Notes under the pieces: generated by a model
Seen by the model: only the letters and a program-made list of their open reading frames with translations
Told to the model about the DNA's origin: nothing
Database searches by the model: none
Shown: positions 53,234 through 57,536 of the stretch, one piece after another
Numbering within the stretch: position 1 is the first letter of the stretch
Layout: each line of letters begins with the position of its first letter
NCBI RefSeq assembly: GCF_943181435.1
Contig: NZ_OW969598.1
Span: 186,001 to 250,000, forward strand
Origin: Neisseria sp. Marseille-Q6792
Lineage (GTDB): Bacteria > Pseudomonadota > Gammaproteobacteria > Burkholderiales > Neisseriaceae
DNA length: 64,000 nt
Direction: 5' to 3'
Translations under genes and position numbers: made by a program

Positions 53234-54157
53234 ATGAAAAAACGCAATAATCCTCTTCCGCTGTTGAACGGTGTCAAACCCAGTTATTTGGTGCTGCCGC
53301 ATGAAAAGCAGTTTTACGGGCTGCCGCTGCTGCATTTTCTGTGCATCCGCTTTCCTTTTGTGGGCGCGGACAATTGGCGCAGGCGGTTGAACAGCGGTTT
53401 TGTGGTCGGTTCGGATGGTGCGGCGTTGGATGAACATTCTTTGTTCGAGCCGGGTAAGACGATGTTTTATTATCGGGAAACCAGCAGTGAGGATGAGCCG
53501 TGTATTCCGTTTGAAGAAAAGATTTTGCATATTGATGAGCATTTGATTGTGGTGGACAAGCCGCATTTTCTGCCCGTCATCCCCAGCGGGCGTTTTTTGA
53601 GGGAAACGCTGTTGACACGTCTGCGCCTGCGCCCTGAATTGCAGCATTTGAATGTTGAAGACATTACGCCGCTGCACCGCTTGGACAAGGATACGGCAGG
53701 CGTGATGCTGCTGTCGCATAATCCTGCGACGCGCGGAGCCTATCAGACGATGTTTCAAAACAAAACGGTATGGAAAACGTATGAGGCGCTTGCGCCGACA
53801 AGGACGGATTTGCCGTATCCGATCGATGTGGTTTCGCGTTTGGTGAGGGGTGAAAAATTTTTTACGACGCAAGAGGCGGAAGGCGAACCAAACGCACATA
53901 CGACGGTCGAACTGATTGAAAACAGAGGGGAATTCAGCCTTTACCGCCTTACGCCGCATACCGGCAAGAAGCACCAGTTGCGCGTGCATATGATGGGTTT
54001 GGGTATGCCGCTGTTGAATGACGCGCTCTATCCCGTGCCGTCTGAAGCGGGAAGCGAGGATTATCGGAAACCTTTGAAGCTATTGGCAAAAAAGATTGCG
54101 TTTGCAGATCCTTTGTCGGGTCGGGAAAGGGTGTTTTGCAGCGGGTTTTGCCTATAA
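53234..54157 (+). CDS. RluA-family pseudouridine synthase
   Basis: The 307-residue protein has an S4-like N-terminal part (NWRRRLNSGFV), then DKPHFLPVIP and the catalytic ITPLHRLDKDTAGVM with its Asp, and KKHQLRVHM near the C-terminus. These are the RluA/RluC/TruC family motifs. The target RNA cannot be told. The gene lies between the 137-bp element and IS1016. It is separate from rluD at 13.9 kb. Confidence 0.88.
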   Translation: MKKRNNPLPLLNGVKPSYLVLPHEKQFYGLPLLHFLCIRFPFVGADNWRRRLNSGFVVGSDGAALDEHSLFEPGKTMFYYRETSSEDEPCIPFEEKILHIDEHLIVVDKPHFLPVIPSGRFLRETLLTRLRLRPELQHLNVEDITPLHRLDKDTAGVMLLSHNPATRGAYQTMFQNKTVWKTYEALAPTRTDLPYPIDVVSRLVRGEKFFTTQEAEGEPNAHTTVELIENRGEFSLYRLTPHTGKKHQLRVHMMGLGMPLLNDALYPVPSEAGSEDYRKPLKLLAKKIAFADPLSGRERVFCSGFCL

Positions 54158-54211: not shown

Positions 54212-54927
54212 AGGGGCTGTACTAGATTAGCAGATATGTTACCCTCAAAGTATGAAGATAACACACTGCAAATTAAAGAAAAAAGTACAGAAAGAACTGC
54301 TCCGTTTTTTTGTGCTGGAAGTTACCGCCCGTTCTGCCGCCGATATTTTGGGTATCCATCCCAATTCGGCAGCACTGTTCTACCGTAAAATCCGCACGGT
54401 TATCAATTATCATTTGGCCTTGGCTGCCGATGAGGTTTTTGGAGGGCTCTATTGAGCTGGACGAAAGCTATTTCGGCGGACGACGTAAAGGTAGACGTGG
54501 TCGCGGTGCAGCAGGAAAAGTGGTTGTCTTCGGCATTCTGAAACTCAACGGACGGGTCTATACTGTTGTCGTAGATAATGCCAAGTCTGAAACGTTACTC
54601 CCTGTCATCAAAAAGAAAATCATGCCGGACAGTATTGTTTATACCGATAGTCTGAGCAGCTACGACAAGTTGGACGTGAGCGGTTTTATTCATTACCGCA
54701 TCAACCATTCCAAGGAATTTGCAGACCGTCAAAACCACATTAACGGCATTGAGAACTTTTAGAATCAGGCAAAACGCGTCTTGCGAAAATACAACGGAAT
54801 CGATCGCAAATCTTTCCCGCTGTTCTTGAAAGAATGCGAATTTCGATTTAACTTCGGCACACCGTCTCAACAGCTTAAAATCCTGCGGGATTGGTGTGGA
54901 ATTTAGGGCTAATCTAGTACAGCCCCT
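54212..54927 (+). mobile_element. IS1016-type insertion sequence, inactive
   Basis: The 716-bp element has perfect 20-bp inverted ends starting AGGGGCTGTACTAG. A 5-bp ATATT is found on both sides and may be part of a target duplication, though I cannot confirm the usual longer one. It lies between the rluA-family gene and ybaB. Confidence 0.9.
54252..54906 (+). pseudogene. IS1016 transposase, frameshifted and with a premature stop
   Basis: The first part (MKITHCKLKKKVQKELL through ALAADEVFGG) moves to another frame near 54434-54450, where it continues as IELDESYFGGRRKGRRGRG. The DDE residues are seen in ELDESYFGG, YTDSLSSYDKL and NGIENF. A TAG at 54760-54762 replaces the Trp codon after NGIENF, just past the catalytic Glu. 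The frame then runs on to 54906. Both changes inactivate it. Confidence 0.9.
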
Positions 54928-55367: not shown

Positions 55368-57536
55368 TTACGGTCGGTTTGCAGCCAATTCCAGAGATTC
55401 AGGTTCCCATTCGGCTTCAAAAACCTGCAAAAGCCGACGTGCGGTTTCGTCGGCTTCGAGCAAATCCTGTGCCTGCCGCCTACCTTCAAGTTGGATGCGC
55501 CGGCGGCGCATGTCCGGAGTTTCCCAGCCTGCGTCGTCGCGCCAGGGCTCGGTTTGCAACTTCAACGGCAGGCCGTAGGCTTCGGCAAGCGTGGTTCTGA
55601 TTTTGTCGAGCCGCTCTTTGTTGGTCGTGGCACGGGCTTCATCGGTCAGCGAAAGCATCATCAGATGGCTGCCTGCATCGTATTGTGTCCATGCGGCGTG
55701 TTGCGCCAGCATTTGCGCTGCGCCGAGCTTGCGGGCGAAATGCCGGACGATTGCTGCCCAGTTTTCGGTGGAAAACTCAGGAGGCGGGGCGAATTGCGTA
55801 CCGTCTTCGTCGTTGCTGCCTTCGTCGTCGTTGTTTTCTTCTTCCGCCTCTTCTTCTGCATCGGCAGGGACGGCGTATTCCCAATCCGGCGGCGGGGGCA
55901 TTTCTGCGCCGTCTTCTACGGGGTAGTCATCATCCGGAAAGCCGTAACCGTAGAAAGGTTCTGCAGGGGCTTCGTGCGCAAATGCTTCCGTTTCAACGGC
56001 TTCATCATTCTGTGTTGTCTGAATGGGGTTTTCAGACGGCACTTCGGATAAGGAAGCTCCGGTTTCGTTGTCGGCTGCTTCGTTCTTGGAAACTTGATTT
56101 TCAGCCGATGTTTCGGCTTTGTTTGCGGACGGGCGGTTTGCCTCTGTTGTTTCAGAGTTTGTTTGAATGCTTTCCGCTAACTCTTGCACGGGCACGTCCG
56201 ATACGGTTTCTGCATCGTTCGGCACATCTTCCCAAGGCGGAACATCGTTGTTTTCCTGAGCGGAAGCCGGTTCGGCAACCTTGTTTTCAGACGGCATTGC
56301 AGGCACAGATGCCGTCTGAACGGGTGTTTGGGCGGTTTCCGTCTTAGAGGGAAGCGGCTTTTTTGCGGCCGCCTCCTTTTCGGCGGCTTGTGCCGATGGG
56401 GATTTTAATTCTGTATTTTCAATCACGGCATTTGCCTCACATGAAGTTGCCGCCAACGGTGTAAACGCCAGCATACGCAGCAAGGTCATGACGAAGCCGG
56501 CGTATTCGTCGGGTGCAAGGCTCAAATCCTGTTTGCCGCGGATGGCGCATTGATAATAAAGCTGGATTTGTTCGCCGCTGAGTGTCTGGCTCAGCGGCAA
56601 CAGCACACCGCGATCAGGGTCGTCGTGTGCCAAAGCGGAGGGCACCGCCTGTATCAAGGCGAGGTGTTGCAGCAGCATGGCCAGTTCGCCCAAGGCATTG
56701 TCAAAGCCGACGGCACACGCAGCTATTTCCTGCGCTTTTGCCAGCAGGACTTCGCCGTCTTGGTTGATGATGCCTGTCAGCAGTTCGTAAAGGTATTGTT
56801 TATCGACCGCACCGATCATTTGGCGGACGTCTTGTTCGGCAACGCTGCCCGAACCCATGGCGATGGCTTGGTCGAGCAGGCTCAGGGCGTCGCGCATCGA
56901 GCCTGCGGCGGCGCGTCCCAAAAGTTGCAGGGCGGGGGGTTCGTAGGCGATTTTTTCGCAGTCGAGGACGTAGGCAAGGTGGTCGGCAACCTGCTGCGAA
57001 GTCATGTTACGCAAGACGAATTGCAGGCAGCGGCTCAAGACGGTAACGGGAACTTTGTGCGGATCGGTCGTGGCAAGGATGAATTTGACGTGTTCGGGCG
57101 GCTCTTCCAGCGTTTTGAGCATGGCGTTGAACGCGCTTTTGGAAAGCATATGCACTTCGTCGATGATATAGACTTTGTATTTGCCGGCAGTCGGTGCATA
57201 TTGGGCGTTTTCCAATACTTCGCGGATGTTGTCGATGCCTGTGTTGGAGGCGGCGTCGATTTCCAGCAGGTCGACGTAGCGTCCGGCATCGATTTGGGTA
57301 CAGCTTTCGCATACGCCGCAAGGTTCGCCGTGTTGCGCGTTTTCGCAGTTGAGGCTTTTGGCAAGGATGCGGGCGATGGTGGTTTTGCCCACGCCGCGCG
57401 TACCGGTCAGCAGGTAGGCGTGGTGCAGCCTGCCTTCGTCCAGCGCGTTGCGCAAGGCTTTGACGACGTGTTCCTGACCGACTAAGTCGGCAAAGGTTTT
57501 CGGACGCCATTTTCGTGCAAGAACTTGATAAGCCAT
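55368..57536 (-). CDS. dnaX: DNA polymerase III tau/gamma subunit
   Basis: DnaX is the motor of the clamp loader and ties polymerases together at the fork. The 722-residue tau protein has Walker A GTRGVGKTT (about 44-52), a zinc-type cluster CGVCESC, the sensor region VYIIDEVHMLSKSAFNAMLKTLEEPPEHV (DEVHMLS, TLEEPPEHV) and a collar domain to about 370. An acidic, low-complexity tau tail from about 380 precedes a C-terminal tau domain. At codons 391-393 lies a frameshift cassette that would give a 397-residue gamma. The tail holds two uptake words in coding sense. Confidence 0.96.
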   Translation of the reverse strand: MAYQVLARKWRPKTFADLVGQEHVVKALRNALDEGRLHHAYLLTGTRGVGKTTIARILAKSLNCENAQHGEPCGVCESCTQIDAGRYVDLLEIDAASNTGIDNIREVLENAQYAPTAGKYKVYIIDEVHMLSKSAFNAMLKTLEEPPEHVKFILATTDPHKVPVTVLSRCLQFVLRNMTSQQVADHLAYVLDCEKIAYEPPALQLLGRAAAGSMRDALSLLDQAIAMGSGSVAEQDVRQMIGAVDKQYLYELLTGIINQDGEVLLAKAQEIAACAVGFDNALGELAMLLQHLALIQAVPSALAHDDPDRGVLLPLSQTLSGEQIQLYYQCAIRGKQDLSLAPDEYAGFVMTLLRMLAFTPLAATSCEANAVIENTELKSPSAQAAEKEAAAKKPLPSKTETAQTPVQTASVPAMPSENKVAEPASAQENNDVPPWEDVPNDAETVSDVPVQELAESIQTNSETTEANRPSANKAETSAENQVSKNEAADNETGASLSEVPSENPIQTTQNDEAVETEAFAHEAPAEPFYGYGFPDDDYPVEDGAEMPPPPDWEYAVPADAEEEAEEENNDDEGSNDEDGTQFAPPPEFSTENWAAIVRHFARKLGAAQMLAQHAAWTQYDAGSHLMMLSLTDEARATTNKERLDKIRTTLAEAYGLPLKLQTEPWRDDAGWETPDMRRRRIQLEGRRQAQDLLEADETARRLLQVFEAEWEPESLELAANRP
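56344..56377 (-). promoter_or_regulatory. Programmed -1 frameshift cassette in dnaX
   Basis: On the leftward strand the heptamer A AAA AAG (56364-56358) lies in the correct phase (GCA AAA AAG, codons 391-393). AGGAGG (56377-56372), 7 bases upstream, is an internal Shine-Dalgarno-like site. After a -1 slip the frame reads GCC GCT TCC CTC TAA and stops at 56346-56344. A perfect uptake-word hairpin (56320-56286) begins 37 bases downstream. This matches the E. coli dnaX signal in type. Confidence 0.75.

Follow-up and report, generated by a model that had tools for sequence, protein, structure and literature searches.

A probable programmed -1 frameshift site in dnaX of Neisseria and an apparently reversed arrangement in a sister genus

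The heptamer A_AAA_AAG is the site used for recoding in Escherichia coli dnaX (PMC5009743) and ranks among the most shift-prone heptamers in that bacterium (PMC4066793). Other dnaX genes are recoded differently, since PMC3711429 describes both two-ORF dnaX genes, which need a shift for tau, and the dnaX of Thermus thermophilus, in which gamma arises via polymerase slippage on nine As. According to the same source, the Recode-2 database includes Neisseria dnaX, and the 2013 GeneTack dnaX logo was built from nine genera, Neisseria among them. Moreover, the Rfam family RF01843 'neisseria_FSE' is named for a Neisseria frameshift element. The Neisseria site is already known as a prediction; our literature search found no experiment on a Neisseria gamma protein or a reporter, no paper naming RF01843, and none joining dnaX, Neisseriaceae and frameshifting.

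We analysed a window of 64,000 nt from Neisseria sp. Marseille-Q6792 (contig NZ_OW969598.1, positions 186,001 to 250,000), in which dnaX carries the following features, with their basis given in brackets:

55368..57536, minus strand: dnaX, a 722-codon zero-frame ORF for tau of 722 aa and 79.0 kDa (ORF, Pfam, computed mass)
56372..56377, minus strand: AGGAGG, a Shine-Dalgarno-like run 7 nt 5' of the heptamer (sequence, duplex energy)
56358..56364, minus strand: slippery heptamer A_AAA_AAG at codons 391-393, GCA AAA AAG (sequence, conserved phase, codon-level conservation)
56356..56357, minus strand: CC immediately 3' of the heptamer (C in 40/40 and CC in 38/40 Neisseria sites)
56344..56346, minus strand: stop TAA of the -1 frame, with a predicted gamma C-terminus Lys-Lys-Ala-Ala-Ser-Leu (sequence)
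56311..56350, minus strand: match to Rfam RF01843 neisseria_FSE, under the gathering score (34.4 bits, E 3.6e-6)
56286..56320, minus strand: inverted DNA uptake-word pair forming a stable hairpin 37 nt 3' of the heptamer (-20.4 kcal/mol)

The Pfam domains of the zero-frame product are PF13177 and PF22608 (ATPase region and lid), PF12169 (domain III, residues 232-358) and PF12170 (tau domain V, residues 591-714). The heptamer AAAAAAG, running from 56364 to 56358 on the minus strand, stands in exact X_XXY_YYZ phase at codons 391-393, as the initial annotation had read it from the sequence alone. A -1 slip would add Ala-Ala-Ser-Leu before the TAA at 56346-56344 and would give a predicted gamma of 397 aa and 43.0 kDa that ends after domain III; the stop after four codons, this gamma-length product and the uptake-word hairpin at 56320-56286, all of which the annotation had claimed, were likewise recovered.

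The window shares with the E. coli dnaX element (RF00382) an in-phase A_AAA_AAG after domain III, an upstream Shine-Dalgarno-like run, a near -1 stop and a gamma-length product. The two differ in the position of the heptamer (codon 428 in E. coli versus 391 in the window), in the bases that follow it (AG versus CC), in the upstream run (AGGGAG at 10 nt versus AGGAGG at 7 nt) and in the downstream stem: folding 48 nt in both cases gives a stem of -19.1 kcal/mol beginning 5 nt 3' of the heptamer in E. coli and only a weak one of -7.2 kcal/mol from 6 nt in the window. The description of the locus as a complete E. coli-type cassette was therefore too strong, because the Shine-Dalgarno-like run lies nearer, no comparably strong stem-loop is adjacent and the stable hairpin is 37 nt away. 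RF00382 itself was not among the three matches obtained at E up to 10 for window positions 56100-56600, while it scored 96.8 bits at the E. coli locus. With neisseria_FSE and the Recode-2 Neisseria dnaX entry the window shares gene, place and genus, its stem region having diverged. Unlike the two-ORF dnaX genes in PMC3711429, the window has a zero-frame tau, and compared with the nine As that the same source gives for Thermus, it has only A6 together with a fixed G and codon phase.

Taken alone, the heptamer in the window is mildly surprising and weak evidence, because 82 of 5000 synonymous codon shuffles of this dnaX matched it with a heptamer in codons 361-460 and a near -1 stop; an in-phase heptamer appeared anywhere in the gene in 290/5000. 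Across the 23 window ORFs that reach 300 aa or more (10,526 codons), the in-phase A_AAA_AAG occurs twice. The second occurrence, codon 285 of the ORF at 53234-54157, was used as a control for chance; from there the -1 frame stays open to the end of the ORF. We take this ORF to be pseudouridine-synthase-like. That the dnaX heptamer is more than chance follows from its retention in 40 of 45 Neisseria dnaX loci and from the codon controls. We consider the locus a programmed -1 ribosomal frameshift site with a probability of roughly 85%, and on comparative grounds the site in the window is real, conserved and very probably working.

The 45 loci came from 46 Neisseria genomes, with G019 left out as it gave paralogue-like matches only, also with TIGR02397. 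Forty of them have the heptamer in identical phase, between codons 381 and 395, a count limited by the fact that these relatives are not independent of one another. In all 40, a -1 stop follows within 14 codons, stop included (median 6 versus a background median of 12), although 57% of background linker positions likewise reach a -1 stop within 14 codons. The comparison across related dnaX genes which the initial annotation had proposed thus bore out both heptamer and stop. The remaining five loci (L013, L022, L042, L044 and L045) lack the heptamer, and gamma would therefore not be required across the genus.

The flanks are variable, with 33 distinct 30-nt upstream contexts among the 40 sites, and the codon preceding the site is GCA in 24, GAA in 8, CCA in 5, GTA in 2 and CTA in 1, encoding Ala, Glu, Pro, Val and Leu, respectively. 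One alternative is that Lys-Lys-Pro is kept for the protein as a basic linker patch, with the heptamer a by-product of codon usage. The Lys-Lys pair is indeed retained in 40 of the 45 loci, a Pro codon comes next in 38 of the 40 sites, and AAG is preferred before C, a caution that PMC5009743 attaches to 3' context. However, the preceding residue changes and yet its third base is A in 40/40, which makes this third base the most uniform among the 207 columns that show four or more kinds of residue, despite the rarity of A-ending codons in these genes (Ala 20%, Pro 5%, Val 15%, Leu 8.5%). The second Lys is AAG in 40/40. Of the 19 Lys columns with 36 or more rows filled, no other is all AAG, and AAA predominates or is universal in each of the 17 conserved Lys columns outside the site; the first Lys is AAA in 40/40, which is also true of 3 of those 17. 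Lys codons before C are AAG in 30.0% of cases in these genes versus 14.5% overall, so this preference alone is insufficient for AAG in 40/40. Finally, the two followers other than Pro, CTG and CTT, still begin with C. A protein motif as the sole cause was rejected on the ground that third bases are constrained where residues vary; we regard it as very unlikely, and the codon patterns indicate that the constraint acts on nucleotides. Less likely still is slippage of RNA polymerase on the A run in the manner of Thermus dnaX, with shifted messages giving gamma. The A-rich run is suitably placed and the nine As of Thermus are a precedent, but the run is A6 in the window and in 32 of the 40 sites of the relatives, and A7 in the other 8, while at least eight As are usual (PMC3711429). 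This candidate was rejected for so short a run, and slippage by the polymerase would need neither the fixed terminal G nor the codon phase.

A third possibility keeps ribosomal frameshifting and has all three E. coli-type elements at work, the downstream stimulator being either the uptake-word hairpin or the RF01843 stem; we consider it unlikely, though clearly less so than the two preceding alternatives. The RF01843 match in the window (34.4 bits, E 3.6e-6, gathering score 50) speaks for it, as do matches over the cut-off, always within dnaX, in 4 of the 46 Neisseria genomes (G006, G015, G020 and G040). However, the window retains only 7 of the 13 pairs of the model as standard pairs, compared with 10/13 in L023 and 13/13 in L008, from which we judge that the window stretch is homologous with a diverged stem. 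The model also matches weakly elsewhere: besides weaker matches at dnaX in G024, G001, G023 and G027, there are many more at other places, including other uptake-word sites, and below-cut-off matches occur in 3 of 14 control genomes. The uptake-word hairpin is stable, dominates the longer fold of the window and would outcompete the RF01843 stem, being paired in the ensemble; it begins 37 nt after the heptamer, against 5 nt for the E. coli stem, and close to the heptamer the window offers only its -7.2 kcal/mol stem instead of a strong stem-loop. In favour of the hairpin, an inverted uptake-word pair occurs 37-40 nt downstream in 10/40 relatives. However, such a pair lies within 120 nt in only 12/40, and for its distance and this patchy occurrence the hairpin was rejected as a stimulator; it is probably not one. 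Local folds of -18.8 kcal/mol or lower, near the -19.1 of E. coli, are present in 9/40 relatives with varied sequences, and some Neisseria may therefore rely on a stem close to the site. A codon-shuffle z-score of folding was discarded as a negative test for its insensitivity, as the known E. coli stem itself reached only z -0.72.

Returning to programmed ribosomal frameshifting as the preferred reading, the bases directly 3' of the heptamer are its most constant companion. The next base is C in 40/40 sites versus 24.5% of linker codons beginning with C, and the next two are CC in 38/40 versus 11.2% of linker codons. CC is the most shift-prone 3' dinucleotide after A_AAA_AAG in E. coli (PMC5009743). 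In E. coli, A_AAA_AAG that lacks stimulators gives a shift of about 0.3%, or about 3.7% at most in the most favourable 3' context (PMC4066793), and CC alone would thus fall short of E. coli-like levels. Among the best 80 listed outgroup loci, reduced to 78 named loci by leaving out N. elongata and L087, 17 have an in-phase A_AAA_AAG at codons 355-480, and in 14 of these 17 the next bases are CC, TC or CT.

The supply of tRNA-Lys was examined with a 76-nt E. coli tRNA-Lys query in four genomes (G001, G020, G013 and G065), where 15 of 30 loci were scanned. This yielded 2, 2, 2 and 1 tRNA-Lys genes, respectively, all with the anticodon UUU, in a scan that could miss a strongly diverged CUU gene; the remaining scanned hits were tRNA-Thr, -Val or -Asp. 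The UUU-only tRNA-Lys of an E. coli-type cassette was accordingly found in the relatives (six genes in G001, G020 and G013).

The AGGAGG run, which the initial annotation had called an internal Shine-Dalgarno, pairs at -12.2 kcal/mol, and fewer than 0.1% of random dnaX positions are stronger. Its spacing of 7 nt, or 9 nt if measured from the AAGGA core within that purine run, compares with 9-14 nt given for Shine-Dalgarno-like stimulators of -1 shifts in PMC5009743. Across the 40 relatives, the median upstream pairing energy is -5.6 kcal/mol versus -1.9 at 1200 random positions; all 40 lie below the background median, 16 in the strongest 5% and 9 in the strongest 0.5%. Exact AGGAGG stands upstream of the site in only 3/40. 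What held up is the run itself together with a weak Shine-Dalgarno-like bias, which on this comparison is general in Neisseria dnaX; the strong form is not.

We propose that ribosomes at GCA AAA AAG would hold two Lys-tRNAs with UUU anticodons in the P and A sites, and that a share of them would slip one base back to AAA AAA, read Ala-Ala-Ser-Leu and stop at the TAA. These would release the 397-residue gamma, which has the ATPase region, the lid and domain III and lacks the tau tail, while ribosomes that do not slip would continue to tau. The single kind of tRNA-Lys, pairing weakly with AAG, may help, as may the 3' CC by keeping this pairing weak and the upstream Shine-Dalgarno-like pairing, strong in the lineage of the window and weaker elsewhere in the genus. 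The heptamer, its phase, the stop, their conservation, the codon constraint and the 3' C are read directly from the sequences, whereas the slippage itself, its efficiency, and the stability and use of gamma we infer. If gamma is made, Neisseria, like E. coli, would have this clamp loader subunit in two forms, with their balance set in the mRNA. Selection appears to keep the heptamer, its phase and the 3' C across the genus while the strong Shine-Dalgarno run and the hairpin turn over, and the 3' CC is therefore the stimulator to test. What is new here is this conservation of the 3' C rather than of a strong Shine-Dalgarno run or hairpin, and the apparently reversed arrangement in a sister genus.

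Several irregular loci were encountered. Two loci, L046 and L047, have A9 runs in the dnaX linker at codon 383 with near-identical flanks, and L045, one of the Neisseria loci without the heptamer, has an A10 run at codon 420; in all three, shifted-frame stops come soon after, and the runs are candidates for transcriptional slippage. A dnaX of N. gonorrhoeae with a (C)7 tract is tabled among candidate phase-variable genes in PMC1097732. No proper dnaX match was obtained by protein or TIGR02397 in G019, rated 100% complete, or, outside the genus, in G070 (97%); the likely cause is that the sequence is masked or the assembly has a gap.

Beyond Neisseria, 37 genomes of the family gave 34 dnaX loci, with no match in G061 and G074 and only a weak one in G070. 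Two of the loci (L054 and L072) are truncated where a contig or record ends. The frame of a third, L076 in G077, breaks after about residue 359 and the tail continues in another frame, a break that is not found in relatives and is probably a sequencing error or a frameshift at the DNA level. The linker of the 28 single-ORF dnaX loci of the family outside Neisseria (26 scanned by script, L057 and L058 read separately) contained A_AAA_AAG in none. A 77-row tree requires no fewer than five changes of the heptamer label, only one of which is forced by well-supported branches. On this pattern the heptamer may plausibly have been gained in Neisseria and lost later in some loci, and the Neisseria heptamer is likely independent of the enterobacterial site.

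In the sister genus g8, six loci (L060-L065) that form one clade (100/100) show a different layout. Their zero-frame product is 377-381 aa long, and beyond it the -1 frame runs on for 214-383 codons, with tau domain V detected there in five of the six (PF12170, E 1e-4 to 1e-3, under the Pfam cut-off) and not in L064. The heptamer C_CCA_AAA, listed as shift-prone in E. coli in PMC4066793, stands directly before the zero-frame stop in five loci and one codon earlier in L064. In L063, a TGA of the -1 frame lies just 5' of CCCAAAA and the zero-frame TAA just 3' of it, leaving a 7-nt window for the shift. A hairpin of -14.1 to -25.1 kcal/mol (z -3.9 to -5.6) is predicted in all six. Its main stem begins 4-6 nt downstream, and the stem sequences of L063 and L064 are different. 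Nine of ten related proteins, all nine of metagenome or MAG origin, terminate at 377-386 aa; the C-terminus is exactly DPK, SPK or DPKS in seven of the nine. It looks as if tau is made in g8 via -1 frameshifting at C_CCA_AAA, the reverse of the Neisseria arrangement; a restart of translation rather than slippage is a possible alternative. The polarity is that of the two-ORF dnaX genes in PMC3711429, where poly-A runs occur in 12 of 17 genes in place of C_CCA_AAA. If tau in g8 does depend on frameshifting, an essential replisome protein, the coupler of the polymerase, would rely on recoding.

We hypothesize that dnaX of the Neisseriaceae represents a series of recoding designs. In most Neisseria species, gamma would be made by A_AAA_AAG-CC, with the 3' CC and a variable Shine-Dalgarno-like run replacing the E. 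coli stem, and in g8 the order would be reversed, with gamma in the zero frame and tau made by a -1 shift at C_CCA_AAA with a strong hairpin. We advance this broader scheme tentatively and put its chances at slightly under even. If true, the balance of gamma and tau has been rewired at least twice within one family.

Downstream of dnaX in the window, positions 54252-54762 hold overlapping ORFs in two frames that resemble a broken transposase, presumably of the IS1016/IS1595 type. A start sequence similar to that of these ORFs follows dnaX in L064.
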